A stretch of DNA of 64,000 nt, taken from Gammaproteobacteria bacterium (lineage in GTDB: Bacteria; Pseudomonadota; Gammaproteobacteria; Pseudomonadales; Alcanivoracaceae). The translations under genes and the position numbers were made by a program. Shown here piece after piece: positions 33,642 to 51,829 of this stretch (positions are counted from its first letter, which is position 1; every line of letters starts with the position of its first letter). Location: positions 62,001 through 126,000 of the forward strand of contig JAGPVL010000037.1 in assembly GCA_018067045.1 (NCBI GenBank), written 5' to 3'. The notes below the pieces were generated by a model. The model was given only the letters and a program-made list of their open reading frames with translations. It made no database searches and was not told the origin of the DNA.

Positions 33642-33659
33642 TTTGGCCCACCAACCAAA
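33642..33659. promoter_or_regulatory. Candidate operator, copy 1 (TTTGG-N8-CCAAA)
   Basis: TTTGGCCCACCAACCAAA lies 37 bases before the start of the PF10118 gene and in the divergent gap next to the TetR gene. Same 18-bp dyad as at 34925, 39615 and 51812. Confidence 0.7.
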
Positions 33660-33695
33660 TATATTTATGCAGTACCCTTCGTCTGGAGAAGCCCC

Positions 33696-34637
33696 ATGGC
33701 CCTCGCAAATCGTAAGATCGGTTATAACGAAGTTGTCACCCGAGATATACACTTCCCCATGCATATTAATAATGTGAGCCGCCATTGGTTCGCAAATGAC
33801 CCTTGGTCTACGCACTGGATGAACGCCATTCTCGCCGCCGTTCCTGACGGAGAGCGCTGGGTGATGAATTCAGCAAGACGCCAACTTAACAAGCTTGATG
33901 ATCCAGAGGTTCTCAAAGCCGCGAAAAAATTCATCCTTCAAGAACGGATTCATGCCCGTGAACACGATGAGATGAATGCCGTCGGGGTCAAGCACGGAAT
34001 CCCCATCGACAAAGTTGAAGGCGTCTTCAAGTTGATTCGCAAGCAACTTCAACACCGCCTCACTGACGACATGCAAAGCTCTATCGCCGCTGCTTTCGAG
34101 CATTTCACCGCCATCATCTCTGCGGTATTGCTCGAACACCCAGAGCTTTTTGACGACACTCATCCCGAATTAAGTGCCATGCTCTACTGGCATTTCGTCG
34201 AAGAAACGGAACACAAGAGTGTCAGCTTTGATGTTTTCGTTGACGCCAGTGGCGGCGGCTTACGCAGTTACCGGTTGCGCGCGAGTGGGATGCTGCTGGC
34301 CATTGCGCTGGGTTTCCCAATCATGATCGGCAATCAGACCTATCTGCTATACAAAGATCGACAGATATTGAATCTACGCTCAGCCGCGCACATGGCGAAA
34401 ATGCTTTTCTGGCGGCCCGGTATTCTGTCCAAGGTCCTCGGTGGCGTAACGCCCTACTTCTCCCCGACCTTCCATCCCTGGGATGACGACAACCGACATG
34501 TGATTCATATCTGGAAGCGCGCCTACGAAGAGACCGGCGATCCACAGAAGGCCTATCAGGCACTGCGTGATCACCGCAGACGCAACCTCCCCCCGACACG
34601 TACGACGCCCCTCATGCCTGCTTCGCAACAGGCCTGA
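33696..34637 (+). CDS. PF10118-type putative metal-dependent hydrolase (copy 1)
   Basis: About 313 residues from ATG 33696 (GGAG upstream). The protein belongs to the predicted metal-dependent hydrolase family PF10118 (COG3687), of unknown reaction. Candidate metal ligands are in ILQERIHAREHDEMN, AAFEHFTA and FVEETEHKSVSFDVF; the paired Glu/ExxH pattern looks like a helical di-iron site. A hydrophobic segment follows (ASGMLLAIALGFPIMIG), so it may be membrane-attached. Two paralogues occur at 42090 and 50884 in the same lipid island. I infer a role in hydrocarbon or lipid metabolism. Confidence 0.82.
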   Translation: MALANRKIGYNEVVTRDIHFPMHINNVSRHWFANDPWSTHWMNAILAAVPDGERWVMNSARRQLNKLDDPEVLKAAKKFILQERIHAREHDEMNAVGVKHGIPIDKVEGVFKLIRKQLQHRLTDDMQSSIAAAFEHFTAIISAVLLEHPELFDDTHPELSAMLYWHFVEETEHKSVSFDVFVDASGGGLRSYRLRASGMLLAIALGFPIMIGNQTYLLYKDRQILNLRSAAHMAKMLFWRPGILSKVLGGVTPYFSPTFHPWDDDNRHVIHIWKRAYEETGDPQKAYQALRDHRRRNLPPTRTTPLMPASQQA

Positions 34638-34984
34638 GGGAACTGAGGCGCCGACCGATGCCCGCCGCAGTATTAACTGGGGCCGGCATCACATAGCACG
34701 AAACCGCCATGCTCTTATCAGCGGCAACGCCGGACAACGGCCAACAAAGGGAGCCTTCCAACGAAGCCCAGATTGGGTGCCGGCAAACCCAACCATGCCC
34801 TGCCAAACGGGCGAAAGAAGCGCTCTCAACTACCGCTTACGTTATCCATCGCCATCGCCGTCTTTTTTTGGCCTTTCTAAACCTTCCCCCCCATAGACAC
34901 CCACGCAGAAATTTGACAGTCTTGTTTGGTCGGTCAACCAATCAATCTAAACAACAAAGTCTCGAACCATATTAGGAGTTAAAA
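34638..34984. other. Intergenic gap before the FadL gene
   Basis: 347 bases without a gene that I can support; the only structure I see is the operator-like dyad at 34925-34942 and the ribosome site TTAGGAG before the FadL start. Confidence 0.6.
34925..34942. promoter_or_regulatory. Candidate operator, copy 2
   Basis: TTTGGTCGGTCAACCAAT, one mismatch in the dyad, 42 bases before the FadL-like gene start. Confidence 0.65.
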
Positions 34985-36334
34985 ATGCCTTCAGGAAAAA
35001 ATAAACGCCTGTCCCTTCTTGCTGCCGCACTGTTTTCACCCTGCATCGCCAGTGCCGGCGCTGGCGACAGCGCCACCAACTATGGCTTAGGCCCCATGAA
35101 TGTCGGCAGCGCGTTAGCGTTCAGCCCTTTTACATCAAACAGTTGGTCGGTTTACTACAACCCCGCCGCAATGGCTCGCTCCCCTGAAGGAGAGCTAAGT
35201 ACCATTGTGCAGTATGGTGACCAAGAACTACGCGCCAAGTCGTTAGGCGGCACAGCGCCTTTAGCACGCGAAAATGATGTACTCTCCGACGCCAGCTCCG
35301 AGCTATTACTGATAGGCCTCAAGACCCGTATGGCCGGCGTCACTAGCACAGAGACACCGATATACTTCGGCCTGAACGTTGGCGTTGATGAATTCACCTC
35401 CAACCTCGTGCCCTACCAAGCCAACACCTCACAAAAGGGACAGTTTTTACGCTACGAATCCCAACCACTTTATTTGGCCTTTGGTGGCGCAGTCAGCAAC
35501 ATCGTCAGAGGTGTTGACCTCGGGATATCCGCACGGCTAACGCTAGAAGCGAAGGCCAGCATGCAAGCCGTATCTGACCTTGGCGGAAACACCGATTCAG
35601 AAAAGCTTTCTCTTGAAGCGTCTCCCTCCCTGTCGCCAGCACTCGGCATCAACGTCCGCACAGGCGAAATGTTTTGCGGCTCGGGCGAATGCATGCCTTT
35701 TGGCATGGACAAGTTAGAGGTCGCACTATTTTGGCGGGCCGAAAGCAACTATGAGGTCTCCGTAGACGCCAATGTCGTCGTACCTGGCGTTATACCTGAC
35801 CCTGGGTTGGGCCTGCTACTGACCACAATCGACACCTACCAACCCGAGGTTCGCGGTGCCGCCCTCTTACTGCCTGTCGGAAAATTCGAACTCACGGCGG
35901 CGATCGAACAACACAGCTGGTCCGCCCTGCAAAAAGAATTTGCCCAAGACACCATCCGTGACCAAGCCAACTTGGCCTTTGACGATGTCACCATTCCGCG
36001 TATCGGTGTCAGCTATCAATGGTCTGACTCGCTGAAGCTATTTGCTGGCGCAGCAATAGAGGATTCACCGTTACAGTCAAACCGGTCCCAAGATGTCAAC
36101 TACCTCGACACCGACAAAAAGGTTCTAGGATTAGGCGCAAGCTACCGTCTCGCCAGCGCTCCACTGGTAAACATGCCGCTAGAAATTGCCCTCGCATACC
36201 AGTACCAAATGCTGGATGAGGCTGACTTTGAACTCACCTCCATTGACTCTCCTACCCACCCCGCCCCTTACGAGACCGTAACAGCGGATGGTGAAATCCA
36301 AGTCTTTTCCTCGTCCTTTTCTCTAAAGTTCTGA
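34985..36334 (+). CDS. FadL/TodX-type outer membrane transporter
   Basis: 449 residues with an N-terminal signal peptide (LSLLAAALFSPCIASAGAG). Mature N-terminus and first strands (GSALAFSPFTSNSWSVYYNPAAMARSP without the first residues) carry the NPA motif of the OMPP1/FadL/TodX family, which takes up long-chain fatty acids or hydrocarbons through a beta barrel. It ends in an aromatic residue (SSSFSLKF), as outer membrane barrels do. It forms a two-gene unit with the large lipoprotein gene and has a candidate operator upstream. Probably the uptake channel for the island's substrate. Confidence 0.9.
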   Translation: MPSGKNKRLSLLAAALFSPCIASAGAGDSATNYGLGPMNVGSALAFSPFTSNSWSVYYNPAAMARSPEGELSTIVQYGDQELRAKSLGGTAPLARENDVLSDASSELLLIGLKTRMAGVTSTETPIYFGLNVGVDEFTSNLVPYQANTSQKGQFLRYESQPLYLAFGGAVSNIVRGVDLGISARLTLEAKASMQAVSDLGGNTDSEKLSLEASPSLSPALGINVRTGEMFCGSGECMPFGMDKLEVALFWRAESNYEVSVDANVVVPGVIPDPGLGLLLTTIDTYQPEVRGAALLLPVGKFELTAAIEQHSWSALQKEFAQDTIRDQANLAFDDVTIPRIGVSYQWSDSLKLFAGAAIEDSPLQSNRSQDVNYLDTDKKVLGLGASYRLASAPLVNMPLEIALAYQYQMLDEADFELTSIDSPTHPAPYETVTADGEIQVFSSSFSLKF

Positions 36335-36383
36335 GGTTAAAGTTTTGACACCCCTAAAAATAATGCCTCTCCGGAGAAGAACA

Positions 36384-39300
36384 ATGAATAAAAAATTACC
36401 CCCTAGCTTACGACTGGTTGCCGGGCTCACCTTGCTTTTGGCAGGCCTGTTAGCTGGCTGTGGTGGCGACCAAGGCGGCGTAACCGTTCCTTGGCGCACG
36501 CCAGAGACAGTCATTTTCTCGTACCCCTATCCGCAGCAAACGGAAGTGCCAACCAGCGCCCCCGTGGTATTGCGATTCTCCTCTGCACTTGACCAAGAAG
36601 TGGCCGATGACATCAGCGCACGAATTCAGTTAGTTCGCGACACCGATGGCAGCACGGTAGCGGTTGACTATCAGCTCGTAGAAGACGGCCAAGGGCTGAT
36701 TCTGCGTCCTCAATCCCCTCTCGCCCCAACCGAGACTTACCAGCTAGTGGTCGGCGGCGACGGACTAGGAGTCATTGATGGCGACACCGTCGAACGCGTG
36801 CAATTCCAAGCTGCTGGCGCCCAAGCAGGTTCATCGGAATCGATGGGAACCGGATCTTTCGCACTACTCTTCGCTCAGCCCATGGACCGGCCGTCATTAC
36901 TGAGTGAGATCGATGATGCCAGCCACCCCATCGACATGAGCACATTCAGAATGGCATTCAACCAAGCGCTCGACCCAACCAGCGCGCTCTACGGTGAAAA
37001 CGGTTCTGTTCAGCTTCGAGACAATACCGGCAATCTGGTGCAAGCATCCATGTTCCTACAAGGTCGCTACCTAAGTTTAGATCCCGCCGAGGATCTGCAG
37101 CCGGTTGAGCATACGCTCACCATTAGCGGGGTACGTGCCGACACCACGGGTGCCACACTGCCAGACTACCAGCGTACTTTTATGCCTGATTCATCACTAC
37201 CCCGTGCAACGTCGACACTCAAAGTCGGCGCGCTTGGTGCGGAACAGCCCGAGTTAACCTCAGCATTAACCGGCAACCCGATCAACCAAGTACCGGTACA
37301 ATCATTTGTATTGGGCGATGAGTCATTCACGGGGTTAACGGGTGACCTGAGTGCTGATCTTGGTTTTGCGCCTCACTTTCCAAACGCAGTACCGCTACGA
37401 GTGCCTGCCGGTTCTGTTCTGCGCGGCTCTCCTGTTGCCGTCAATATATTGGGCGAAGTGTCATCCGGCATTGAAACCGGCGAAGTCACCATTACCCTGC
37501 TTAGCGATGCTAACGGCTATCTGATTGCGAATCCGTTCAGCGACTCACCATCAGTACCTCGTTATGCATTGCTCAACATGGATGCAGCCATGACAGCGCA
37601 AGGCCAAGAAGCCAACGCCGCGCTTAGTCAGAATTTGCTCAACTTGCAAATCGTCGGGCTAGCAGTGGTTGAGAATGGCGTGCTGGTACTAGATGCCGTT
37701 AGCGTCGTGGAGCCCGAAGTACTGGGCTTGGAGAAAGCATCTGGCCTGCTCTCATTCCGCATGGAGGCCTACGCGGACCAACGTCAAGCGCCTACGCCAG
37801 CTCAAGACATGCAGTCTTTATCTCTCCAGTCTTGGGCGCCAGGGCAAGACTTTCAGGCCAATGCTAGGCCGGGCGACCCCATCATTCTAAATTTCAACAA
37901 GCCTCTAGACCCTGACTCAGTCTTTCTTGATGGCGCCATACAAGTGAGCGTGAATGGCATCGTGCAAACGCCCCCGATGCGACATGATGGCGCAACAGTG
38001 GTGATTGGCGGAGACGTCCTTCAACACGACGACGATATTCAGGTGCAGTTGAGCAGCCTTCTTCGAGATATTCAGGGCAATCCACTGAATGCGGATATGA
38101 CACTCGACATTCGTCTACCCGAATTCGTTTTGCCCAATGGCACCGCCAATGGACTCCGCGCACCATTGGTCGCCGCCGTCTTTCCTGGTTACCCCTGCGC
38201 CATGACGAGCTTCACACTTACCGGGCCACGCGAAGACTGGCGTAATGGCCGCTGCGTTGGTGGCAAAAATTCCGACCCACTTCACCCCGTGCCCAATCTG
38301 TTCAAGGACTTCAGCCTGCGCGCCATCTTTAGTCGCAGCATTGATAAAACCACCGTTAATGCCAGCACCTTTATTGTCGAACGTTTTGACGCAGACACGA
38401 ACATGTGGACGAACACTACCGGCCGTCGAAAGGTACTTGCCCAGCGAGTGGAGTTTTTCCCAGATACACCCTGGCAGGTTGATGGACTATATCGCTATAC
38501 ATTGCTTTCCCAGGAAAGCGCTCCGAATTGTGGCGTCAACGCCATATGCTCTCCAGATGGTGCGCCCCTACAGACGCGCCAACTCTCTCAGTCCAGCTCT
38601 TCCGCACCAGGTCTCAGAGAGGGAGGGCCGGACCTGACCAATCACTTTGTTGTGACAGGAGAAGATGACCGTATTACCCGGGTATCATTGCGCTCACTGC
38701 CTTCGGCTGATGTGAATACCAACCTCAGCCTTGATAGCAACGAGCAGGGTGCAGTACCCGACGGTAACGGCGGCGCCAGCGCAGACGCGAACTACCTGAA
38801 GCTTCGATTGAAGGACGTTTCAGGCGTCGTCAGCGAAGCCAACATCGGTTGTGATATCGGTGACGATTGCCCGGAGAAGCGATTTGCTTTCGTCGGCTCA
38901 GGAGCGCTGCAAGCGGGGGTTAGTCACTACGTCCCAGATGTAGTCGTAAACCGCCGCCTCATCGACAGCGACCCTACGACGTCGAATGAAATTACCGGAG
39001 CGATCATTGCTAAGGTATTTCCTACGACGCTGACGACGACCAGCGTTTTCCTGCAAGCCAAAGCACTGCGTCTAATCACCATCCCGTTAGACACAGGACC
39101 TCTCGTGCTCCGTCTTGGATACGAAAATAACCAGCCTATTACCGGCTACATTACCGACACCCCTGACGGACCTTGGTTTAGCACGACGTTTGATCTAATG
39201 GTCGATGCACCTGAGCTAGAGCCTCGATTAATCATTGAGCTTGGGCACGATATTCGCAGTAAACAGATCACCGGTGTGACGCTGGAAGGGCCACTGCGTT

Positions 39301-39464
39301 TTGTCGACGATGGTCGCTTGGTGCTCAAAGTTCGTAATCCTGAGTCCTTGATCATACCGGCCAACATTGATCTCCTCGGCATAGGTTTAGCCGGCGTTGA
39401 GCTAGAGGTTCCGCCGCTCGGCGTAGACCTGACCTTTACCTTTCTACCGGTTAAAGATTTTTAA
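36384..39464 (+). CDS. Very large lipoprotein with bacterial Ig-like (SbsA-type) domains
   Basis: About 1026 residues from ATG 36384 (GGAG 7 bases upstream). A lipoprotein signal peptide ends in LLAGC. The mature part has several repeats of the SbsA/Big_5 Ig-like pattern, for example YPQQTEVPTSAPVVLRFSSA, DPIILNFNKPLDPDSV and LRAIFSRSIDKTTVNAS, each ending in an A(L)-x-N-x-x-L/Y-like stretch. Such domains occur in surface and matrix proteins. Asp residues are abundant, so calcium binding is possible. Linked to the FadL gene by a 49-base gap, it may sit at the outer membrane and help present hydrophobic substrate; this is inference. Confidence 0.85.
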   Translation: MNKKLPPSLRLVAGLTLLLAGLLAGCGGDQGGVTVPWRTPETVIFSYPYPQQTEVPTSAPVVLRFSSALDQEVADDISARIQLVRDTDGSTVAVDYQLVEDGQGLILRPQSPLAPTETYQLVVGGDGLGVIDGDTVERVQFQAAGAQAGSSESMGTGSFALLFAQPMDRPSLLSEIDDASHPIDMSTFRMAFNQALDPTSALYGENGSVQLRDNTGNLVQASMFLQGRYLSLDPAEDLQPVEHTLTISGVRADTTGATLPDYQRTFMPDSSLPRATSTLKVGALGAEQPELTSALTGNPINQVPVQSFVLGDESFTGLTGDLSADLGFAPHFPNAVPLRVPAGSVLRGSPVAVNILGEVSSGIETGEVTITLLSDANGYLIANPFSDSPSVPRYALLNMDAAMTAQGQEANAALSQNLLNLQIVGLAVVENGVLVLDAVSVVEPEVLGLEKASGLLSFRMEAYADQRQAPTPAQDMQSLSLQSWAPGQDFQANARPGDPIILNFNKPLDPDSVFLDGAIQVSVNGIVQTPPMRHDGATVVIGGDVLQHDDDIQVQLSSLLRDIQGNPLNADMTLDIRLPEFVLPNGTANGLRAPLVAAVFPGYPCAMTSFTLTGPREDWRNGRCVGGKNSDPLHPVPNLFKDFSLRAIFSRSIDKTTVNASTFIVERFDADTNMWTNTTGRRKVLAQRVEFFPDTPWQVDGLYRYTLLSQESAPNCGVNAICSPDGAPLQTRQLSQSSSSAPGLREGGPDLTNHFVVTGEDDRITRVSLRSLPSADVNTNLSLDSNEQGAVPDGNGGASADANYLKLRLKDVSGVVSEANIGCDIGDDCPEKRFAFVGSGALQAGVSHYVPDVVVNRRLIDSDPTTSNEITGAIIAKVFPTTLTTTSVFLQAKALRLITIPLDTGPLVLRLGYENNQPITGYITDTPDGPWFSTTFDLMVDAPELEPRLIIELGHDIRSKQITGVTLEGPLRFVDDGRLVLKVRNPESLIIPANIDLLGIGLAGVELEVPPLGVDLTFTFLPVKDF

Positions 39465-39614: not shown

Positions 39615-39632
39615 TTTGGCCATACAACCAAA
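39615..39632. promoter_or_regulatory. Candidate operator, copy 3
   Basis: TTTGGCCATACAACCAAA, 50 bases before the flavin monooxygenase gene start; same dyad as copies 1, 2 and 4. Confidence 0.7.
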
Positions 39633-39681: not shown

Positions 39682-41208
39682 ATGAAACACAAACATCTCG
39701 ATGTCTTGATTATTGGTGCGGGCCTATCGGGCATTGGCGCCGCTTGCCACCTGAGCCGCGACTGCCCTCAGTTACGTTACGGCATTGTCGAACGTCGCAA
39801 ACGCATTGGCGGCACCTGGGATCTATTTCGCTACCCCGGCATTCGCTCCGACTCAGACATGTTTACGCTCGGCTATAACTTTCGTCCCTGGACGGAAACC
39901 AAAATGCTCGCCGACGGCCCGTCGATTCGAAAGTACATCGAAGAGACCGCTGAACAGCATACCGTCGGAAAACATATTCGATTCGGGCTCAAAGTCACCG
40001 ATCAAGAATGGAGCAGTAAAAATAATCGCTGGACTATTACCGCCTTGAACGAAGAGACCGATGAAGAGGAAACTTTCACGGCAGGGTTCTTGCTAAACTG
40101 CACCGGCTATTACAACTATGATGCCGGGTATACGCCTAAAATATCCGGTCTCACACGTTTTGGCGGAGAGGTTATTCACCCGCAGCATTGGCCAGAAGAT
40201 TATGACTATAGTGGCAAAAAAGTCGTTGTTATTGGTAGCGGCGCCACGGCCGTCACGTTAGTACCCGCGATGGCCGAAAAGGCCGCTCATGTGACAATGC
40301 TGCAACGGTCTCCCTCCTACGTAGCATCGGTTCCCGAACAAGATCTTATCTCTAAAAACCTGCGCCGCGTGCTGCCTGAAATGGCCGTTTACCGTATCGC
40401 ACGGATACGAAATGTCTTGTTGCAGAGAACCGTTTTTAACCTCTCGATTCGCAAGCCCAAGGCCATCCGTAAACTGTTGCTCGCCGCCGCCAAAAAACAG
40501 CTGGGGCCGGACTTCGACATGACGCATTTCCAGCCGAACTATAACCCTTGGGAAGAGCGTTTGTGCGCAGTGCCAAAGGGCGATCTTTTTAAAGTTCTGC
40601 GCGAAGGTAAAGCCTCGGTCGTGACGGATCACATACACTCCGTCACAAAAACAGGCATAAAACTGCAGTCTGGCGAACGCCTACCGGCAGACGTCATCGT
40701 GACTGCCACCGGCCTTGATCTGCAAATGTTTGGCGGTGCAAACATTCGTGTCGACGGACAGGATGTCAACATTTCAGAATCCATAATGTACAAAGGCCTT
40801 ATGCTAGAGAACGTGCCTAACATGGCCTTAGTTTTCGGTTACACCAATTCCTCTTGGACTCTAAAAGCTGACATTGCCAGCGAGTTTGTTTGTCGACTGC
40901 TAAAGCATATGCAGCGGATTCGCGCGACCAAAGCAACCCCTGTCGACACCGAGGGTTGTGGCTCTGATCTCAACTTTCTCAACCTTCGTTCAGGCTACAT
41001 TCAACGTGCGGATCATCGCCTGCCACGCCAAGGCAATAAGCAGCCTTGGCAAAATCTTAATGACTACCTTCGTGACCTTCCGGCTCTTCGCTATGGAAAA
41101 CTGGATGATGGCCACCTGTGTTTCGAAGGAAAAAATCTCAAACACCCCAAGCGCGGCCTAATCCAACAATTATTAGGCGATCCACTACCGGAAGGAGTCA
41201 AGCAATGA
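39682..41208 (+). CDS. Class B flavoprotein monooxygenase (AlmA/Baeyer-Villiger type)
   Basis: 508 residues. FAD motif IIGAGLSGIGAACHLSRD, flavoprotein segment RIGGTWDLFRYPGIRSDSDM, the Baeyer-Villiger fingerprint FGGEVIHPQHWPED (FxGxxxHxxxWP) and NADPH motif VVIGSGATAVTL are all present. Relatives include AlmA, linked to long-chain alkane oxidation, and Baeyer-Villiger monooxygenases for ketones; the fingerprint is shared, so I cannot choose. Its stop overlaps the SDR start (ATGA), and the two are followed by a PF10118 gene, giving a three-gene unit under operator copy 3. Confidence 0.9.
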   Translation: MKHKHLDVLIIGAGLSGIGAACHLSRDCPQLRYGIVERRKRIGGTWDLFRYPGIRSDSDMFTLGYNFRPWTETKMLADGPSIRKYIEETAEQHTVGKHIRFGLKVTDQEWSSKNNRWTITALNEETDEEETFTAGFLLNCTGYYNYDAGYTPKISGLTRFGGEVIHPQHWPEDYDYSGKKVVVIGSGATAVTLVPAMAEKAAHVTMLQRSPSYVASVPEQDLISKNLRRVLPEMAVYRIARIRNVLLQRTVFNLSIRKPKAIRKLLLAAAKKQLGPDFDMTHFQPNYNPWEERLCAVPKGDLFKVLREGKASVVTDHIHSVTKTGIKLQSGERLPADVIVTATGLDLQMFGGANIRVDGQDVNISESIMYKGLMLENVPNMALVFGYTNSSWTLKADIASEFVCRLLKHMQRIRATKATPVDTEGCGSDLNFLNLRSGYIQRADHRLPRQGNKQPWQNLNDYLRDLPALRYGKLDDGHLCFEGKNLKHPKRGLIQQLLGDPLPEGVKQ

Positions 41209-42056: not shown

Positions 42057-42089
42057 AACTTACCCAATCATTAGCGAATGGAGATCACG

Positions 42090-43340: not shown

Positions 43341-44948
43341 TCAGGCTTGATCCTCGAGGATAAATCGTACCGCCCTCTCTCCGATCATCATGCAGGCCGC
43401 ATTCGTGTTTCCGCTAATGAGTAACGGCATGACAGATGCATCCGCCACGCGCAAACCTCGAACACCGTTCACCCGCAACCGTGCATCCACCACCGAATGA
43501 TTGTCCGATCCCATGCGGCAGGTGCCCACAGGATGGTAAATCGTCTCGGCACGCCGACGAATATCGTCTTCAATCTGCGCGTCACTGATGACACTTGCCT
43601 CGGGCTGAACGTCACCGCCGTAAACCCCCGCAAAGGCCTCGGTACGAAACACGTCTCGCGCTAGCTTGACGCCTTCGCGCAACACCGCCATATCTTCTTG
43701 TTCCGAAAGATAATTCGGGTCGATCAAAGGCGCAGCTCTAGGGTCAGGGCTGGCCAACCGAATCTGTCCCCTACTTTTCGGGCGGAGCTGACAGACATGA
43801 ATCGTGCAACCAAAACCAGGAGTCAGTTTACGGCCATGATCACGCAAAAACGTCGGCAAAAAATGCAGTTGCACATCTGGACGCTCCGGGGAACTTAACA
43901 CGCTCGCGAAAGCGCCCGCTTCAGCGGCATTACTCGCGAGAAAGCCGCGACGGTACTTAAAGTACTGATAAAACGCCGAAATCAGACGCGGCAGAAAGAA
44001 CGGCGACAAACCCAAAGCCTGACGACTGCGATCCTTGATCATGACCGTCATGTCCAAATGATCCTGCAGGTTCTCCCCCACTTCGGGAGAATGGTGATGG
44101 CACGCGACTCCAACTTGTGCGAGATGGTCACGATCACCAACGCCCGAAAGCATCAACAGCTGAGGAGAATTGATCGCCCCACCAGCCAAAATGACCTCTC
44201 TTTTAGCGCCAATGATCGAGTAATTTCCCGCCTCATCCTGCACTTCAACACCGACGGCCTGACCGCTGCTAATGATCACTTTCGTCACAAGGGTGTCTGT
44301 CAAAATGTGCAGGTTGTCTCGGCCACGCGCGGAATCAAGAAAGGCACGTGCGGCGCTCCATCGCTGCCCATCTTTCTGAGTAACCTGGAAACGCCCGAAG
44401 CCACTTTGTTCGGGACCATTAAAATCATCATTACGAACAAAGCCCAGCTGCTCTCCAGCTTTAATAAACAGCGGCGTCAACGGATTAATATCCTTCACCC
44501 GGGTCACATTGAGCGGGCCGCCGCGACCATGCCGGTCATCCTCGGCGTACTCATCGTTATGCTCGTGCTCGTTAAATAATGGCCGAACGCTCTCCCAGTC
44601 CCACCCTAGCGCACCGTGTTTCGCCCAGTCGTCATAATCTTGTTGCTGACCGCGAATGTAGACCATGGCATTGATCGAACTACTGCCTCCGAGAGTTTTA
44701 CCGCGCGGCCAATAGAGTGGCCTCATTTTCAAGTTCTGTTGCGTGACGGTGTTGTAACCCCAGTTCCGCGCCCCTTCCTTAATCAGACCAATCAGGCCAA
44801 AGGGAATATTAACGAAACCACTGTTGTCATGAGGCCCCGCTTCGATAACACAAACAGAATACTTTCCACCTTCACTGAGGCCATTGGCAAGTACGCATCC
44901 GGCCGAACCTGCGCCAACGATAACGAAATCAAATTTTTTAAGCGCCAC
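43341..44948 (-). CDS. GMC-family alcohol dehydrogenase, AlkJ-like
   Basis: 535 residues. FAD motif VIVGAGSAGCVLANGLSEGG, GMC signature 1 (RGKTLGGSSSINAMVYIRG) and signature 2 (GAINSPQLLMLSGVG) are clear, as is the C-terminal catalytic segment YHPVGTCRMG with SGNTNAACMMIGE. AlkJ-type enzymes oxidise medium- and long-chain alcohols from alkane hydroxylation, feeding electrons to the membrane quinone pool. It is the last gene after two acyl-CoA dehydrogenases on the same strand (2-base gap). Confidence 0.92.
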   Translation of the reverse strand: MALKKFDFVIVGAGSAGCVLANGLSEGGKYSVCVIEAGPHDNSGFVNIPFGLIGLIKEGARNWGYNTVTQQNLKMRPLYWPRGKTLGGSSSINAMVYIRGQQQDYDDWAKHGALGWDWESVRPLFNEHEHNDEYAEDDRHGRGGPLNVTRVKDINPLTPLFIKAGEQLGFVRNDDFNGPEQSGFGRFQVTQKDGQRWSAARAFLDSARGRDNLHILTDTLVTKVIISSGQAVGVEVQDEAGNYSIIGAKREVILAGGAINSPQLLMLSGVGDRDHLAQVGVACHHHSPEVGENLQDHLDMTVMIKDRSRQALGLSPFFLPRLISAFYQYFKYRRGFLASNAAEAGAFASVLSSPERPDVQLHFLPTFLRDHGRKLTPGFGCTIHVCQLRPKSRGQIRLASPDPRAAPLIDPNYLSEQEDMAVLREGVKLARDVFRTEAFAGVYGGDVQPEASVISDAQIEDDIRRRAETIYHPVGTCRMGSDNHSVVDARLRVNGVRGLRVADASVMPLLISGNTNAACMMIGERAVRFILEDQA

Positions 44949-44950: not shown

Positions 44951-46048
44951 CTATTCTCCAGCATCGATAAATCGACGAACATGATGCTCACGATCACCAT
45001 TACTTAACGAGCAATGAGTAATCAAACGAAAATAGTGGCCGATATTGAGCTCCTCGGTCACACCAACGCCGCCATGAATCTGAATGCCCTGCTGAGAAAT
45101 TTGTACCGCCTGCTTTGAAAAATATGCCTTCGCCGCAGACGTCGCATTCGCACGCTCGCCAACCGCTTCTTGCTCAGCCTTTATCGACACCATCATCAGC
45201 ATCGATTCCAATTGCTGGAGATCAATAAACATGTCAACAAGGTAGTGTTGAATGACTTGAAAACTACCGATGGCAACACCAAACTGTTTACGAGTACGGG
45301 CATACTCAAGCGTATGCTGGTAAGCCTGATGCGCAGCACCATACATACGCGCACAATCGAGCGCACACATATAGTCAAACCAACGGCTGATCGCCTGTGT
45401 CGCAGACTGACCACGACACAGAATCATCTCGTCATCGATCTCCACATCATCGAACGTCAAGCTGGCTGCACGACTGCCGTCAAGCAAGCGATAACGCTCA
45501 ACCTCAATCCGACTCAAAGGGAGCGAGAGAATAACGAGCTCATCACCGGCCATCGCGGATACCAGCACGGTATCGGCACAACCACCATCGGAAACAATAT
45601 GCTTCTGCCCCGAAAGGCAATTGCCACTAAGTCGCAACGAAGGTGTCATGACCTGATAGCCCGCATCTTTATCATAAAGAGCGGTGGCGACCTTCGCTTT
45701 ACCGGCAATGATGCCCTCTAGTAGCGCAAGCGCACTCGGATTGTTGATGTACTCCAACAGCTTGCCAGGCGATACCACGAGATCCACAAACGGGTCGAGA
45801 CACAAAGCCGCGCCCATTTCACGAACGATGGCTGCAACATCAACTAAAGAGCATCCATAGCCCCCATTCGACTCGGCAAACGGCAAGCCAAACCAGCCCA
45901 GATCATTCATCGTCTGCCAACGGCTAGCATCGACATGGTTATTCTCTTGAAGCTGAGCACGGTGGGTGTCAAAAGAATAATTTTCTTTTAGATAGCGACG
46001 AGCGGTATCGGCAATCAGGGTCGTCTTTTCAGAGAATTTAAAATCCAC
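44951..46048 (-). CDS. Acyl-CoA dehydrogenase, shorter subunit
   Basis: 365 residues of the acyl-CoA dehydrogenase fold: N-terminal helical domain, a middle beta domain, and C-terminal LEYARTRKQFGVAIGSFQVI with the QIHGGVGVTEELNIGHYFR FAD-contact region. It is followed 2 bases later by the alcohol dehydrogenase gene and preceded by a second, different acyl-CoA dehydrogenase. Adjacent unequal pairs of this kind form alpha2beta2 enzymes in actinobacterial sterol breakdown, so these two may be one hetero-oligomer. Confidence 0.9.
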   Translation of the reverse strand: MDFKFSEKTTLIADTARRYLKENYSFDTHRAQLQENNHVDASRWQTMNDLGWFGLPFAESNGGYGCSLVDVAAIVREMGAALCLDPFVDLVVSPGKLLEYINNPSALALLEGIIAGKAKVATALYDKDAGYQVMTPSLRLSGNCLSGQKHIVSDGGCADTVLVSAMAGDELVILSLPLSRIEVERYRLLDGSRAASLTFDDVEIDDEMILCRGQSATQAISRWFDYMCALDCARMYGAAHQAYQHTLEYARTRKQFGVAIGSFQVIQHYLVDMFIDLQQLESMLMMVSIKAEQEAVGERANATSAAKAYFSKQAVQISQQGIQIHGGVGVTEELNIGHYFRLITHCSLSNGDREHHVRRFIDAGE

Positions 46049-46057: not shown

Positions 46058-47218
46058 TCACAGTCCCAGCAACATTTTTGCCAGAACATTTTTCTGTATC
46101 TCGTTAGAGCCGCCATAAATAGTGCAAGCGCGCAGAAAGTTGTAGCGGCGCGAGGCACAATTAAATGTCTTGCTCCCTATCACCTGCTCATTATCCCAAG
46201 GTAAAGATTGGATACGCCCCAACTCAACCATGGCTTGCGATGCTTGCTGCTGAAGCTCCGTGCCTTTGATCTTTAAACCAGAAGATTCTGGCCCGAATGG
46301 TTTTCCGTCATCCGTCGCCGCAACCGTACGAAAGTTCGTGTACTCCAGCGCCATCAAATCAATTTCTAACTCGGCAACGCGACGAGCCGCTTGAGATGCG
46401 TTGTACTCTTCATCCCGTTGCTTCAACGCGGTTTTCATTCGCTCGATTTCAAAATGAATGTCGGCGACACCAGCAATCGTTGTCCGCTCATGCGTCAACA
46501 AGAATTTGGCGATCGTCCAGCCCATTCCCTCGCTGCCGACAAGATTCTCGGCCGGCACCTTCACATCGGTAAAATAAACCTCGTTAAGATGATGATGGCC
46601 ATCGATCGAATAAATAGGCCGAACTTCTATGCCCGGCGATGTCATATCAATCAACAAGAAGGAAATGCCTTGCTGTGCTTTCACCGATGTATCAGTACGC
46701 ACGAGACAAAACATCATGTCCGCCCAGTGCGCTTGGGTGGTCCATATCTTTTGGCCATTCACGAGGTAATGATCACCTTGGCGCTCGGCACGCGTTTTAA
46801 GCGAGGCCAAATCTGATCCCGCATTGGGTTCGGAGTAACCCTGACACCAAAGCGTTTCGCCATTGCGAATCCCAGCCAACCAACGCTCCTTGTGCTCATC
46901 AGAGCCGAAGGTATACAGCACAGGCCCGACCATAGAAACGCCAAAGGGACTGGTAGCAGGCGCGCCAGACATGGCGCGCTCCAAATCAAAAATATAGCGC
47001 TGGGTGGCGGTCCAACCGGGGCCACCGTATTGCTCAGGCCAGGTCACGGTTAGCCAGCCCTGTTTCGCCAGCAGGCCCTCCCAGTGTTGCTGCATGGCCT
47101 TGTCAGGCATCGCGCCACGGGCCGTGCACTGACGTAATTCTTCCGGCACATTTTCTTTCATCCATTGCCGAATTTCTTGACGAAATTTAATTTCTTCTTG
47201 GCTAAATTCGAGGTTCAC
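46058..47218 (-). CDS. Acyl-CoA dehydrogenase, longer subunit
   Basis: 386 residues. FAD and substrate motifs GYSEPNAGSDLASLKTRAE, NGQKIWTTQAHWADMMFCLV and the C-terminal IYGGSNEIQKNVLAKMLLGL are typical. It introduces the alpha-beta double bond in acyl-CoA. Nine bases separate it from the shorter paralogue downstream and 45 from the acyl-CoA synthetase upstream, so the order is activation, then dehydrogenation. Confidence 0.92.
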   Translation of the reverse strand: MNLEFSQEEIKFRQEIRQWMKENVPEELRQCTARGAMPDKAMQQHWEGLLAKQGWLTVTWPEQYGGPGWTATQRYIFDLERAMSGAPATSPFGVSMVGPVLYTFGSDEHKERWLAGIRNGETLWCQGYSEPNAGSDLASLKTRAERQGDHYLVNGQKIWTTQAHWADMMFCLVRTDTSVKAQQGISFLLIDMTSPGIEVRPIYSIDGHHHLNEVYFTDVKVPAENLVGSEGMGWTIAKFLLTHERTTIAGVADIHFEIERMKTALKQRDEEYNASQAARRVAELEIDLMALEYTNFRTVAATDDGKPFGPESSGLKIKGTELQQQASQAMVELGRIQSLPWDNEQVIGSKTFNCASRRYNFLRACTIYGGSNEIQKNVLAKMLLGL

Positions 47219-47263
47219 AAAACCCTCCTCCTTCGAGCTTCACGCCAACACTTTCACGAGGCG

Positions 47264-48814
47264 TTAATTAACTTTCTTCTGGCTGCCTTCCCAATACGGG
47301 GATCGCAGTTCGTTTTTGAGAATTTTTCCTGCGCCGCTGATCGGCAAGGGCTCCGAGCGGAACTCCACGCTTCTGGGCACCTTGTAACCTGCAATCTTTT
47401 CGCGGCAATGATCGATAATGTCAGACTCGGCGGCCTCGCCTCCCTCACCCAAAACCACCACCGCATGAACAGCTTCACCCCAACGATCATCTGGGATGCC
47501 AATCACTGCACACTCCTGCACCGCTGGATGGCTATAAATCGCGCCTTCTACCTCAACGGAGAAGATGTTTTCACCGCCACTGATAACCATGTCTTTGGCT
47601 CGGTCGACGATAAATACGAAGCCTTCGTCATCCATGTAACCCAGATCACCCGTGTGCAACCAGCCGCGATGTAAGGCTTCCGCCGTCTCGGCTTCCATGC
47701 CCCAATAACCGAGCATTACGTTGCCGCCTCGAGCGCAGATCTGGCCCACACTACCGCGTTCCAACTCATCACCGTTGGTATCCATAATCGCCACTTCGAC
47801 ACCGAGCGCAGCCCGCCCAGCACTGCGTAACTTTGCCCCACCGGGCACATGGAATTCGGGACCGAGCGACGTAATAATCGGCGACGCTTCCGTCTGACCG
47901 TAACCCTGCGCAAAGGCAACCGTCGGCATTTGTTCCATCGCGCTCAACAGCACAGCCTCGGGCATCGGTGACGCCCCGTAGAGCATTCGCTTCATGCTGC
48001 CGACATCGAAATCGCCAATGCGACCAGAGGACGCTAATAAATTGACCATGGTTGGCACCAACAAGGTATTGGTCACCTTTTCCTGCTGAATAAGTCCCAG
48101 CACGGCATCCACATCAAACTTTGGAACAATGCAGTGGGTTCCGGCGGCCAAGGTCACCGCAAAGGTGCTCGCCATATCCGCCAGATGGAACATCGGCCCC
48201 GCATGCATATACACCGAGTCACGGTCATAGCCCATTTCAGCGACAACATTGAGCGCATTGAAGACAAGGTTGTCATGACTGAGCATTACCCCTTTCGATC
48301 GCCCCGTGGTACCGCCGGTATAAAACAGACCCGCCAACTCATCGCCGCCGACATTCGCGTCCGCGACGGGCCCCGACGCCTCGATAAACGATTCATAATC
48401 TAGGCAGCCTTCAGGCTTACTGCCGTCGCCCGCAAATATCACATGACGGACGGTTTTCAGCTGATCCCGCAACGCCGGTAGTAGCGCAGCAAAGGTGTCA
48501 TCCACAAGCAGCACTGTTGAGCCAGAATCATTCAGCGTGTAGGCAATTTCAGGGACAGCAAGTCGAATATTTACCGGATTGACTGCTGCACCAGCCCAAG
48601 GCACCGCGTAAAAATATTCCAGATAGCGATCGCTATTGAGCGACAAAATAGCCACTCGTTCGCCCGCCTTCACACCTAAGCCAATCAAGCCTCCGGCGAG
48701 GCGTGCCACACGATTTTCAAACTCGCGCCAAGTCTGACGACGGCCTTCGAAAACGGTTGCCACCCCGGCACCATTGAGCTGCACAGCTCGACGTAACGTC
48801 TGCGTTATAAACAT
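47264..48814 (-). CDS. Acyl-CoA synthetase (fatty acid-CoA ligase)
   Basis: 516 residues, ANL superfamily. ATP loop LFYTGGTTGRSKGVMLSHDN, YGQTEASP, YMDDEGFVFIVDRAKDMVIS and the C-terminal PISGAGKILKNELR with the catalytic Lys are present, so it is complete. It activates a fatty or alicyclic acid as CoA thioester. The start ATG 48814 stands just after the TCCGTTA repeat, whose minus-strand sequence (TAACGGA) supplies the ribosome-binding purines. Confidence 0.92.
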   Translation of the reverse strand: MFITQTLRRAVQLNGAGVATVFEGRRQTWREFENRVARLAGGLIGLGVKAGERVAILSLNSDRYLEYFYAVPWAGAAVNPVNIRLAVPEIAYTLNDSGSTVLLVDDTFAALLPALRDQLKTVRHVIFAGDGSKPEGCLDYESFIEASGPVADANVGGDELAGLFYTGGTTGRSKGVMLSHDNLVFNALNVVAEMGYDRDSVYMHAGPMFHLADMASTFAVTLAAGTHCIVPKFDVDAVLGLIQQEKVTNTLLVPTMVNLLASSGRIGDFDVGSMKRMLYGASPMPEAVLLSAMEQMPTVAFAQGYGQTEASPIITSLGPEFHVPGGAKLRSAGRAALGVEVAIMDTNGDELERGSVGQICARGGNVMLGYWGMEAETAEALHRGWLHTGDLGYMDDEGFVFIVDRAKDMVISGGENIFSVEVEGAIYSHPAVQECAVIGIPDDRWGEAVHAVVVLGEGGEAAESDIIDHCREKIAGYKVPRSVEFRSEPLPISGAGKILKNELRSPYWEGSQKKVN

Positions 48815-48817
48815 AAT

Positions 48818-48846: not shown

Positions 48847-48888
48847 AGATTTAGAGCCAATGGATGGCGTTATAGAAAGCGGGCCTCA

Positions 48889-49350
48889 TCAGCGTACTGC
48901 GGTATAGATGAAGCGCCCTCGGGACACCAATGTCTTCTCTGTGAAAACATCGACCGTAATCACGATAAAACGCTTTCCGACACGCACCGTTATCGGTTCG
49001 GCGCGTAACGTCCCTGCGAATGCAGGGCGCAGGTAGTCAAAGGTCATACTTGTGCAGTCCGGCTCTTCACTTAACTGCAGATCCGATTTCACATGATGGG
49101 CGGCTACTATTTCGGCAAAACTCGCCAATATGCCACCGTGAAATGTCTTAATGAGCGGGTTACCAACATGCTGGTCCCGGAAGCTCATCTGGTAGACGGG
49201 CTCGCCGTTATCCAACACTTGAATGCCCGCTCCGAGGAAATTGACATAGGGGCTATCACTGATCGGCGCTTGCGCTTTCCGATCTTCAATGCCGACCACA
49301 TCCTGCTCTTGTAGCTGCCGCTGTTGTAACTGCTGTTGCGAGACACTCAA
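48889..49350 (-). CDS. Hotdog-fold thioesterase, PaaI type (a)
   Basis: 153 residues. The hotdog core includes QHVGNPLIKTFHGGILASFAE (HGG motif of PaaI-type acyl-CoA thioesterases) and MTFDYLRPAFAGTLRAEP. A Gln-rich N-terminus precedes it. Its ATG overlaps the stop of the second thioesterase gene by 4 bases, so the two form a translationally coupled pair. Confidence 0.9.
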   Translation of the reverse strand: MSVSQQQLQQRQLQEQDVVGIEDRKAQAPISDSPYVNFLGAGIQVLDNGEPVYQMSFRDQHVGNPLIKTFHGGILASFAEIVAAHHVKSDLQLSEEPDCTSMTFDYLRPAFAGTLRAEPITVRVGKRFIVITVDVFTEKTLVSRGRFIYTAVR

Positions 49351-49844
49351 GATACTTTCTCCCTTACTGCTTTCTCTCGTACCGCACCATCAAAGGAAGG
49401 CCCGTGGGTGCCGACAGCAAAACAACCTGACACCGACGCCAGCACGCTGTCATTCGAACATCCCAATGCAACCCCCCTGACATACGCCACATCACCTTTA
49501 ACCTCGTAGCACTCCACCTCACCACGCACGCCCTCTCCGGCCTCAGGCTTGGCAAGAAAATCCACGCGCAGATCAATTGTTGCGATAGGACGCATATCTC
49601 CGAGGTAGGCAAGTATTGCTAGACCACAATTGGAGTCGAGCAACGTCGTAATCGCTCCGCGATGAAGCGCACCACGCTGATCACACATTTCAGGCATGCA
49701 AGGCATTGTCATCGCAGCAAGCCCCTCGCGAGACTCATCCACCCGAATGCCAAACGCTTTGAACAGCGGATGATCTCCACCAAAGAACATCTTCGCCATA
49801 TCCATATACTGAAAATTTCGCTTTGCCATAATTTTCACGCACAA
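49347..49844 (-). CDS. Hotdog-fold thioesterase, PaaI type (b)
   Basis: 165 residues with the hotdog signature MCDQRGALHRGAITTLLDSNCG, in which HRG replaces the usual HGG, followed by TIDLRVDFLAKPEAGEG. A second PaaI-type acyl-CoA thioesterase next to (a); together they may act as a hetero-oligomer on acyl-CoA intermediates. Confidence 0.9.
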   Translation of the reverse strand: MCVKIMAKRNFQYMDMAKMFFGGDHPLFKAFGIRVDESREGLAAMTMPCMPEMCDQRGALHRGAITTLLDSNCGLAILAYLGDMRPIATIDLRVDFLAKPEAGEGVRGEVECYEVKGDVAYVRGVALGCSNDSVLASVSGCFAVGTHGPSFDGAVREKAVREKVS

Positions 49845-49873
49845 CCTTTACGATACGTCTAGTAACGGACGGA

Positions 49874-50884
49874 TTAGAGTGTCAAAGCCAACTCGACATA
49901 GCGTCGCTCAGCAGCACGAACAGTTTCGATAGACTGCGTAATATCATCTAGGGGAAAACTCGACGCTTTCGATCCAGCTTCTAAACACGCAGCCAATGCA
50001 GACCACGCCGAAGCGCACTCTCGCATATGACTCACCAAACCCATTTCTCCCAGCTCAGGCAGCAGTGCCTGCGCTTCATCAAGAAACTCCGCGTACATAA
50101 TTCTGAAACCACCACCGCCACTGCCACGTTTCTCGATAACCTGATAGGCAAAGCGCAGCAGCCAAGGCCATTTTTCATGCGCGCTCCAGCGAGGCAGATC
50201 ATTAATCCACGTATCCAGAGCTTCAATTCCGCTCAGGCGTCCGCCGTTTTTGAGTGCTTTTGCGTTATCGACAATGGCCGAGCGAACGCGCTCAGGGCGC
50301 ACATCGAGCTGCGCCTTATCGAGCACAAATAAATTACCGTGATGAACAAAGGGGGGCGCCAAAGAAAACCTAGCGTCCGCCAAACTTTCGGACGGTACCG
50401 GCAATAACTCCGGACGCTCAGTATCACTCACCATAACCGCCCTCTCTTTGTCACTGTAATGCCAAGCGACAATGGCATGACCGGGGAAGTGAGTGGCGCT
50501 ATTGAAGTACGGCAGGTAAAAAATATCCGTCAATAAAAGTGCAGGCTTGCCTGCATCTAAGTATTGATCCAGTGCAGCCGTCGCCGTGGGTTTATCAGGA
50601 TAGGTCTCCCACTGAAACGGCACCCCCAACGTTTCGAACACCTTTTCTTCAAACCCCATAGAACGGACATGAACAATAAAAGGTGTCACCGTGTCAGGAA
50701 GCTCGACATAGGTTATACCAAGCCCCGCACCGAGCCCGAAGCAGAAGGCCTCGGTCAAATTAAGGCCATGAAATTCCAACAGGTCTCGAATAGCCGAGCT
50801 ACCACAGTGCCTTCCTGGTCGATGCGTGTGCTCAATCCTAGCGACAGAGTCAGACCCTTTAGAACCCAAACTAATCTGCCCCAT
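49874..50884 (-). CDS. BtrH N-terminal domain protein (with DUF4872-like C-terminus)
   Basis: 336 residues. The N-terminal half resembles butirosin protein BtrH: GRHCGSSAIRDLLEFHG with a Cys nucleophile, and FPGHAIVAWHYSDKERAVMVSD with His and Asp, a papain-like triad. BtrH moves an acyl group from a carrier protein to an amine; many other members are uncharacterised. The C-terminal half is mainly helical and matches the DUF4872 region usually attached to this domain. The start overlaps the PF10118 stop by one base (TAATG), so the two are co-translated. Confidence 0.85.
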   Translation of the reverse strand: MGQISLGSKGSDSVARIEHTHRPGRHCGSSAIRDLLEFHGLNLTEAFCFGLGAGLGITYVELPDTVTPFIVHVRSMGFEEKVFETLGVPFQWETYPDKPTATAALDQYLDAGKPALLLTDIFYLPYFNSATHFPGHAIVAWHYSDKERAVMVSDTERPELLPVPSESLADARFSLAPPFVHHGNLFVLDKAQLDVRPERVRSAIVDNAKALKNGGRLSGIEALDTWINDLPRWSAHEKWPWLLRFAYQVIEKRGSGGGGFRIMYAEFLDEAQALLPELGEMGLVSHMRECASAWSALAACLEAGSKASSFPLDDITQSIETVRAAERRYVELALTL

Positions 50885-51753
50885 TAAGCCACCTCGGCCA
50901 ACGGCGGCGTCCCGAAAATAAGATTAGACGCGCTCATCGGATCGCCATCTTTTTCATATTCCTCAAGCCACGCCGCTACTTTCTCCGGCATTCCAGTGTC
51001 CCAAGGGTGAAAGCCGGGACGGAACCATGCCAAAAACTCTGGCACCATTCCTGAGAGAATTCCGCGACGACCATATAATTTGTTCAGCCCCTTCAAAATG
51101 ACACCGGGCTTGCGAGCCAATCCGTCGAGCCGCAGCATGTCGATGAAAACCGGCGCCACAACCAAGTGCATCGCAACCGTCGCAACCACGAGAGCGGACG
51201 CTCGCGTCAAGTAACCGCCTCCTGCTGCTGATTGGTAAACATCATAGGCAACCGCCTTATGCTCAACCTCTTCGACACCATGCCAAAGAAAAAGGGCGCG
51301 CATCACAGGCTCCGCCTGACGAAACATTTCGCTCTCGTCACTGATCATCGCCTCACCTAATGTTGCGGTGAAATGCTCGAACGCGGCGGTCATGGCTAGC
51401 TGATACTTTTTAGGCAGGTACTTCTGTGTCGTGCGAATAAATAAACGCAAGCTGGCCGTCGACTTCGTCACGTCGACCCCCTGACCGGCCATCACATCAT
51501 TAAACCGATCATGGACAATCCCGTGCTGCGCTTCCTGACGAATAAAATGGCGAATGTCTTCGCGAAGCTGACTATCCGTTACTTGATCTTGAAAATTACG
51601 AACGGACTGAATGAAGAATCGCTCGCCTTCAGGAAAATGCACTGACAGCGCATCAAAGAAACGCGTAAGCACTGGGTCTCCGCCATTCCAATGGCGCGGA
51701 ATCGACGACAGGTCAAAAGCAACTTTACGGGGCTTAATAGGCAATGAGTTCAT
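50884..51753 (-). CDS. PF10118-type putative metal-dependent hydrolase (copy 3)
   Basis: About 289 residues from ATG 51753, chosen for the strong GGAGGAAACA site; ATG 51783 is in frame upstream. Motifs are IRQEAQHGIVHDRFNDV, AAFEHFTATLGEAM and HGVEEVEHKAVAYDVYQ. A hydrophobic stretch (LVVATVAMHLVVAPVFI) lies in the C-terminal half. It is first in a unit with the BtrH-like gene, under operator copy 4. Confidence 0.85.
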   Translation of the reverse strand: MNSLPIKPRKVAFDLSSIPRHWNGGDPVLTRFFDALSVHFPEGERFFIQSVRNFQDQVTDSQLREDIRHFIRQEAQHGIVHDRFNDVMAGQGVDVTKSTASLRLFIRTTQKYLPKKYQLAMTAAFEHFTATLGEAMISDESEMFRQAEPVMRALFLWHGVEEVEHKAVAYDVYQSAAGGGYLTRASALVVATVAMHLVVAPVFIDMLRLDGLARKPGVILKGLNKLYGRRGILSGMVPEFLAWFRPGFHPWDTGMPEKVAAWLEEYEKDGDPMSASNLIFGTPPLAEVA

Positions 51754-51811
51754 TGTTTCCTCCAATAAACCGCTATTTTTCATAGCATGAATTCAGGTAT
51801 TTCTCGACTTT

Positions 51812-51829
51812 ATTGGTCAACCAACCAAA
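51812..51829. promoter_or_regulatory. Candidate operator, copy 4
   Basis: ATTGGTCAACCAACCAAA, same dyad as copies 1-3, 59 bases upstream of the minus-strand PF10118 gene start. Confidence 0.68.

Follow-up and report, generated by a model that had tools for sequence, protein, structure and literature searches.

Alkane sensing in marine oil-degrading bacteria is poorly known, and no regulator of the aupAB uptake genes is named in those parts of the literature that were surveyed. For almA, the texts surveyed describe an AraC-type activator in one genus and, in another, a "repressor" to which no family is assigned. APR1 of Acinetobacter venetianus is reported as an AraC/XylS activator of almA (PMC11784139), and AlmR, the reported almA repressor of Alcanivorax dieselolei B5, has a predicted Ig-like domain and is encoded close upstream of almA (PMC11784139), its regulator family being listed as None (PMC8784404). 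The AupA/AupB operon of Marinobacter SP17 is induced on hexadecane (PMC5989066), and the main text of that paper contains "TetR" 0 times and "regulat" once, there not in reference to a regulator. TetR proteins appear elsewhere in alkane metabolism: AlkX of Dietzia is reportedly released by C10–C24 fatty acids (PMC8784404), a TetR gene marked as not tested lies downstream of alkB1 in Alcanivorax hongdengensis (PMC3664771), and a study of a Rhodococcus alkB cluster mentions TetR (PMC6921075). In this survey, which is partial and does not establish absence from print, we recognized no TetR regulator or operator for aupAB or almA in Alcanivorax or Marinobacter. Here we describe four operator-like 18-bp sites and a TetR-family gene (32903–33517, minus strand), its predicted repressor gene, in a stretch of 64,000 nucleotides (the window) from a gammaproteobacterium of the Alcanivoracaceae (assembly GCA_018067045.1, contig JAGPVL010000037.1, positions 62,001 to 126,000), where the sites head genes for a putative alkane uptake and oxidation set.

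An earlier note, made from the letters of this DNA, had listed 18-bp dyads at 33642, 34925, 39615 and 51812, placed 37–59 bp ahead of start codons, and both the coordinates and the distances are exact. Operator 1 (33642–33659, plus strand; TTTGGCCCACCAACCAAA) has 0 mismatches to TTTGGYCNNNCAACCAAA and lies between the divergent TetR gene, whose start is 125 bp away, and copy 1 of a PF10118 (Metal_hydrol) gene, whose ATG at 33696 is 37 bp away. Operator 2 (34925–34942, plus strand; TTTGGTCGGTCAACCAAT, 1 mismatch) precedes the start codon at 34985 of an AupA/FadL-like gene by 43 bp, and operator 3 (39615–39632, plus strand; TTTGGCCATACAACCAAA, 0 mismatches) separates the aupB-like gene from the unit of an almA-type monooxygenase, with 50 bp to the start codon at 39682. 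Operator 4 (51812–51829, minus strand; ATTGGTCAACCAACCAAA, 1 mismatch) is upstream of a PF10118-BtrH-ligase-dehydrogenase unit, 59 bp from the ATG at 51753 on the minus strand, which stands behind GGAGG; the start of the longest open reading frame (ORF) would be at 51783. The four dyads thus exist as stated, and loose matching within the window alone excludes chance only modestly: TTTGGYCNNNCAACCAAA with up to three mismatches matches 7 times versus 3.44 expected, with 5 of 100 shuffles reaching 7, and TTTGG-N8-CCAAA with up to one mismatch matches 6 times versus 2.64 expected, with 2 of 100 shuffles reaching 6. Since this excess over shuffles is modest, the question has to be settled by DNA beyond the window.

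The genome to which the window belongs is a 3.31-Mb draft of 44 contigs, the window being part of contig C37. The exact pattern WTTGGTTGNNNNNCCAAW has seven distinct sites in these 3.31 Mb, of which four fall within the window and the rest on another contig, C1 (three sites), compared with two matches for the reversed control. Many copies at random places inside genes, the outcome that the earlier note had set against its own proposal, are not what the near-exact copies show: the exact symmetric pattern TTTGGYYNNNNRRCCAAH occurs at ten places, of which eight are promoter sites of two clusters (four in the window and four on C1, including a site at 24017–24034 that is absent from the WTTGGTTGNNNNNCCAAW set) and the remaining two sit within ORFs. 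Five one-mismatch places that were inspected likewise fall within ORFs, among whose products we recognize by eye dnaA-, truB- and phosphotransferase-like ones. The C1 cluster is paralogous to that of the window and encodes a TetR of its own, which shares 62% identity with the product of 32903–33517. The C1 TetR gene is divergent from a unit of PF10118, short-chain dehydrogenase (SDR), hydrolase and Baeyer–Villiger monooxygenase genes, with a perfect palindrome in between; a second site heads a unit of two acyl-CoA dehydrogenases, a GMC oxidoreductase and an SDR, a third heads a hydrolase-PF10118 unit, and the fourth lies between divergent aupA-like and PF10118 genes. With four further sites and a second TetR on C1, the regulon that had been described as local to the TetR gene 32903–33517 is supported, but as one that is not only local. 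Among the 14 PF10118 genes of the genome, six are in operator-headed units, as defined by adjacency, and these are the six of both clusters. The patterns were partly fitted to the window sites, and the independent evidence is therefore the second cluster and the relatives; a first strict pattern with the half-site TTTGGTTG missed the Acinetobacter sites and the fourth C1 site, both of which fit the symmetric form.

When the window TetR was searched against 194 genomes of the order, 45 gave a match at E ≤1e-20, and in ten of these the identity was at least 69%. Those ten genomes contain 31 distinct sites of the strict pattern, and 27 share a contig with such a TetR at a distance of no more than 60 kb, a count that includes genome G028 through a partial TetR copy and C1 through the paralogue; two others lie on short contigs (L166, L167) between aupB and the almA unit, and two are elsewhere. 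With both strands counted, the strict pattern yields 33 matches there versus 6 for the reversed control. For a wider comparison, named TetR loci, the best 80 of 115, were taken together with 24 further stretches including the window, and genes were mapped by tblastn; the reading covered stretches of the relatives, with L008, L009, L170–L181 and L190 left aside. These named loci span Alcanivorax, Alloalcanivorax, Marinobacter, Limnobacter, Moraxellaceae, Acinetobacter and others. In 75 of these best 80 loci, a site with at least 9 of the 10 core bases lies no more than 200 bp from the start of a mapped gene, and in 48 it lies no more than 200 bp from tetR. Altogether there are 230 core matches, 162 assigned to a gene start, 49 without an adjoining mapped gene and 19 inside mapped genes. 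Some of these 49, such as L103:8115 and L150:694–773, look like true sites ahead of genes outside the query set; the latter, in Alkanindiges, consists of three tandem dyad-like sites at 694, 725 and 756 with a 31-bp spacing and no adjoining mapped gene.

When distinct 212-bp upstream regions were compared, the dyad was present in 90 of 378, the mean for 68 control half-sites being 1.9; the highest control count, 37, belongs to TGGTT, which is the dyad itself in a shifted register, and the next control reaches 8. By gene, the site is found in 22 of 23 distinct regions upstream of PF10118a, 14 of 15 for PF10118c, all seven for the hydrolase-almA arrangement in which an alpha/beta hydrolase gene comes first, 34 of 49 for tetR and 7 of 12 for aupA. 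The figure for the flavin monooxygenase itself is 2/14; in several relatives the hydrolase gene intervenes between the site and almA. In Acinetobacter, where the TetR is 51% identical, TTGACA-TTTGGTCAATCGACCAAT and a second site precede a PF10118-tetR-BtrH unit. Fifteen loci of distant TetRs (31–36% identity) have no upstream site, the lone 9/10 match (L035) being at the gene start. The site, with its promoter position and near-exact restriction to the clusters, is conserved together with orthologues of the TetR encoded at 32903–33517, with which it co-occurs in relatives; the proposed long-chain alkane regulon would be shared by several genera.

The consensus of 76 unique sites, those known only from tetR having been turned to face away from tetR, is TTTGGTYRNNYRACCAAA. 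Positions that played no part in the selection of sites are palindromic as well (T at position 6 in 67/76 and A at position 13 in 57/76); position 7 is a pyrimidine in all 76 and position 12 a purine in 75, and positions 8 and 11 are a purine and a pyrimidine in 73 and 75 sites, respectively. TTGACA, with at most one mismatch, occurs exactly at −6 to −1 relative to the site in 31 of the 76, and at no more than 8 for any other offset tried, so that in many promoters the operator begins right behind the −35 box, the textbook place for steric repression. Operator 4 has TTGACA directly 5′ and is the only window operator with this exact abutment. A variant is found in Marinobacter loci (L118, L122 and others), where a 22-bp palindrome, TTTGGTTGGTTAACCAACCAAA, stands about 150 bp before tetR; it amounts to a pair of operators that overlap with a 4-bp offset and might bind two dimers.

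The product of 32903–33517 combines the TetR helix-turn-helix domain (PF00440; E 4.1e-15, 55.7 bits, cutoff 24) with the TetR_C_24 ligand domain (93.5 bits, cutoff 26.4). A structure model built from 31 orthologues has nine helices and a mean predicted local distance difference test score of 84.6, and TetR structures are its top folds, PfiT, PfmR, AibR and KstR2 being the closest and FadR structures standing lower in the list; identity in these fold alignments is about 20–33%, and the top match, PfiT, is titled a superantigen. PfmR, AibR, KstR2 and the Bacillus-type FadR, which have catabolic roles, are also among the nearest sequences in the PDB. According to the entry titles, the AibR structure holds isovaleryl-CoA and that of Bacillus FadR holds stearoyl-CoA, and because these are CoA thioesters, acyl-CoA is the favored candidate inducer. 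The protein itself is a relative and not a member of the FadR family of Bacillus type (NF053878, 54.4 bits versus an equivalog cutoff of 200), and PsrA was likewise rejected as its identity (NF053516, 20.9 bits versus 300). The recognition stretch PGSL.YRY is invariant in 31 of 31 orthologues, in keeping with a conserved operator, and the palindromic site 125 bp from the gene agrees with the habit of the TetR family of keeping an operator near its own gene. Among the best 80 of 115 matches, the nearest named relatives belong to the Alcanivoracaceae, with 98% identity in a metagenome-assembled genome and 76–78% in Alcanivorax species.

On these grounds we consider it highly probable that the TetR of 32903–33517 represses the alkane uptake and oxidation units through the four operators and is released by acyl-CoA. 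A TetR dimer would sit on TTTGGTYRNNYRACCAAA, and the bound repressor, directly behind the −35 box in many promoters, would shut out RNA polymerase; the paralogous TetR of C1 probably acts on the four window operators as well. The units under control would be PF10118 copy 1, the aupAB-like genes for alkane uptake, the almA-type monooxygenase-SDR-PF10118 unit and, as the fourth, the PF10118-BtrH-thioesterase-acyl-CoA ligase-acyl-CoA dehydrogenase-GMC unit. Uptake and oxidation of alkanes would then lead to long-chain acyl-CoA, which would free the repressor and switch on the uptake and oxidation set; a ketone, a fatty acid or an alkane would be a less likely inducer than long-chain acyl-CoA.

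Several points weigh against this interpretation. Binding of the TetR to the sites, repression as its effect and an acyl-CoA as the inducer are predictions. With one mismatch allowed, TTTGGYYNNNNRRCCAAH has 74 matches in the own genome versus 72 for the reversed control, and a looser pattern has 17 versus 14; degenerate copies are hence background and only near-exact sites count, so that the genome scan proposed earlier gives cluster-restricted copies at the near-exact level and background at the one-mismatch level. Among the 194 genomes, 101 contain the strict pattern at least once, most of them without a close TetR, so that a lone match carries little weight. Five genomes have a TetR of 51–58% identity, and here strict matches number 2 in G169, 0 in each of G063, G192 and G025, and 5 in G151; the 22-bp form stands upstream of tetR in G063, G192 and G169, and G025 shows no site in either the strict or the 22-bp form. 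In G151 the TetR orthologue (C33:15543–16078) is split over two frames, and its five strict matches lie on five other contigs, a scatter that might be expected if the repressor had been lost. No site could be assigned in 5 of the best 80 of 115 named loci (L083, L089, L108, L109, L129), 15 of the 49 distinct tetR upstream regions have none within 200 bp, and no credible site is seen in the stretches examined for the almA-type genes on contig C17 of the own genome and at C1:606565 of genome G182, in the roughly 300 bp before aupA in Marinobacter L133, or in the stretch read around the Acinetobacter almA-type gene (L185). In Alloalcanivorax the site closest to tetR lies at a distance of about 6 kb, upstream of PF10118a, and the strict sites are 30–44 kb away (G182, G043). 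Among the window promoters, that of operator 1 shows a weak pair of TTGAG and TATATT, TTGACA is displaced upstream by six bases at operator 2, and operator 3 has no clear promoter element near the site. As to the counts, the loci are related, so that the upstream regions are not independent trials; overlapping double registers, at 20 loci, enter the 76 sites separately, i.e. twice; and 3 SDR-assigned rows of 165 had been dropped ahead of that count. A separate observation concerns G169, in which a TetR relative interrupted by an in-frame stop (C18:77172–77663, L168) directly precedes an aupAB-like pair without an operator, perhaps a decayed copy of a tetR-aupAB arrangement.

Loose matches in the window that only modestly exceed expectation, and one-mismatch genome matches at the control level, speak for chance in a short dyad picked by eye in a single window; such an origin has practically no credence and was rejected, given the restriction of exact matches to two clusters, the existence of the second cluster and the conservation in relatives, with binomial estimates of about 1e-11 or less that are to be read with the relatedness of the loci and the partial fitting of the pattern in mind. 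The least improbable of the alternatives, though a decidedly unlikely one, is that the sites belong to an unlinked regulator, for example a fatty-acid regulator like PsrA or FadR, with tetR as a mere cluster neighbor. Linkage by itself is no proof of TetR binding, and the 6–44 kb that separate sites from the tetR orthologue in Alloalcanivorax-type genomes would suit such a regulator. Against this, loci of Alcanivorax, Marinobacter, Limnobacter and Pseudomonas with otherwise different neighbors have the site upstream of tetR, and the Acinetobacter unit that includes tetR has the site at its head.

Somewhat less probable still is a TetR that acts as an activator, or that represses only its own divergent gene and leaves the other sites as decoys or relics. 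The direction of control is indeed a prediction, but the TTGACA box abutting 31 of 76 sites would place the protein inside the promoter, as fits steric repression, and conservation ahead of several kinds of unit argues against relics. The AraC-type activator CypR (51921–52976), the neighbor of operator 4, might also own the dyads: it is a member of its family (NF053784, 550.8 bits, cutoff 500) and in relatives is often encoded within a few kb of tetR. Yet the dyad is present in none of 33 CypR, 34 ferredoxin and 26 cytochrome P450 upstream regions (nor in any of 11 for aupB), and the site stands beside tetR where the DNA examined has no CypR match, in Marinobacter (L117, L126, L127, L131, L132) and Pseudomonas (L135, L140) loci. 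A strongly palindromic site is moreover atypical of AraC activators, and we regard ownership by CypR as very improbable. Repression by the linked TetR remains the preferred interpretation, and the genes that it would control can be described as follows.

The first unit is the PF10118 copy 1 gene (33696–34637, plus strand), identified by its domain match. The aupAB-like pair is next: the outer membrane protein of the FadL family (34985–36334, plus strand; Toluene_X) scores 380.6 bits (E 8e-114) with the AupA model NF041571, short of the equivalog cutoff of 840, and is hence called AupA-like only. Directly downstream and in the same direction, in an order kept in the relatives mapped, is a protein with a Big_5 Ig-like domain (36384–39464, plus strand, in an ORF that opens at TTG 36345), for which the name AupB-like rests on position and on homology between loci, without comparison to an AupB reference. 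A further Big_5 protein is apparent on contig C37 at about 32.7–40.9 kb, some 20 kb before the window; its open frame, 12,627 residues long, matches Big_5 and encodes a giant protein of Ig repeats. The third unit begins with the AlmA-type flavin monooxygenase (39682–41208, plus strand), in which FGGEVIHPQHWP conforms to the Baeyer–Villiger fingerprint FxGxxxHxxxWP, followed, by adjacency, by an SDR (41205–42056, plus strand) and PF10118 copy 2 (42078–42974, plus strand). This unit is without the hydrolase gene found before almA in other genomes; by eye, a hydrolase ORF of C1 (L007:13161–13844) looks like a 5′-shortened relative of that gene. Three almA-type genes are present in G182, one of which has an in-frame stop, and the monooxygenase of the window shares 72% identity with one of these three. 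It is 48% identical to its best match in one Acinetobacter genome, which is not the named AlmA reference, a figure in line with the 50% reported between AlmA of B5 and of DSM 17874 (PMC12449030). An Acinetobacter AlmA is reported to be a Baeyer–Villiger enzyme (PMC12449030), and the subterminal route of Thalassolituus reportedly uses a different monooxygenase (PMC6304351).

The unit behind operator 4 is on the minus strand and starts with PF10118 copy 3 (50884–51753), followed by adjacency by a BtrH_N/DUF4872 protein (49874–50884) and, with synteny in relatives, two ORFs (49347–49844 and 48889–49350) that we take to be thioesterase-like without a domain scan. An acyl-CoA ligase of the long-chain-fatty-acid–CoA ligase subfamily (47264–48814; NF004837, 519.9 bits, cutoff 476) comes next, then acyl-CoA dehydrogenases of large-subunit type (46058–47218; best model pimC, 390 bits, below the cutoff of 623.85) and small-subunit type (44951–46048; best model pimD, 217.3 bits, below 652.7), and, as the last gene, a GMC-family oxidoreductase (43341–44948; choline dehydrogenase subfamily, 583.9 bits, below 605). 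The gene set of the window suggests a role in uptake, in the oxidation of ketones to esters and in the feeding of beta-oxidation. The four units that had been proposed as lipid units have the appearance of a set for alkane uptake and oxidation more than of general lipid genes.

Two features adjoin the regulon. A dyad at 32735–32752, ATTGGACATTCGGCCAAT, is an exact ATTGG-N8-CCAAT and overlaps the start of another TetR gene (32096–32743) beside an RND pump. The earlier note had this position right and its likeness to the four sites wrong: as a fifth operator it was rejected, because only 8–9 of 13 motif positions fit, and it is a different motif, perhaps the own operator of the TetR of 32096–32743. 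With up to one mismatch, ATTGG-N8-CCAAT is found 6 times in the window versus 2.65 expected, and 6 of 100 shuffles reach 6. On the far side of operator 4, CypR is followed by a ferredoxin and a P450 (51921–54971), which we presume to be a CYP153-like unit.

The closest point of contact with published work on almA is AlmR. In G182, which we provisionally take to be A. dieselolei B5, the almA-type gene that has the operator is preceded by an AupB-like Big_5 protein (C1:2234849–2237926), with one hydrolase gene between them, and no match to the Big_5 model, the only model used, occurs within 250 kb of the almA-type genes at 606565 and 4465144. As the only Big_5 protein near any of the three G182 almA-type genes is thus the AupB-like one, AlmR may be the AupB-like protein, G182 probably being A. 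dieselolei. The operator between aupB and almA puts a TetR on offer as the direct almA repressor. We consider it an even question whether, in marine hydrocarbon degraders, the TetR is the direct repressor of both aupAB and subterminal alkane oxidation of the almA type, AlmR being AupB-like, unable to bind DNA and acting indirectly via inducer uptake, with the two TetRs cross-wired on one operator code. If so, deletion of AlmR would alter almA expression indirectly through uptake of the inducer, and two alkane clusters would be cross-wired by two paralogous TetRs. PF10118 proteins, of unknown function, would be tied to alkane use, and a biosensor for alkanes or acyl-CoA could possibly be derived from the system. 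With an 18-bp operator code and its linked TetR kept in several genera, a single purified protein and one oligonucleotide would be enough to put to the test how marine oil degraders sense alkanes.

Set beside the known systems, the window TetR is, like AlmR, put forward as an almA repressor, although AlmR is reported to carry an Ig-like domain and the candidate of the window is a TetR. APR1 also regulates an almA gene, as we propose here, but it is an activator of another family and is not adjacent to almA. The AupA/AupB proteins of Marinobacter SP17 are an uptake pair related to the aupAB-like genes of the window, and the TetR gene near alkB1 of A. hongdengensis likewise accompanies an alkane gene in an Alcanivorax and may be the orthologue of locus L082. 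PfmR, AibR, KstR2 and the Bacillus-type FadR are TetR regulators that resemble the window protein in fold. AlkX of Dietzia, likened here by description only, governs an alkB-type gene in a Gram-positive organism, whereas the window TetR accompanies aupAB-like, almA-type and PF10118 genes; both would be TetR repressors of alkane oxidation, AlkX acting on alkW1 and the window protein, as proposed, on the units headed by the four operators.

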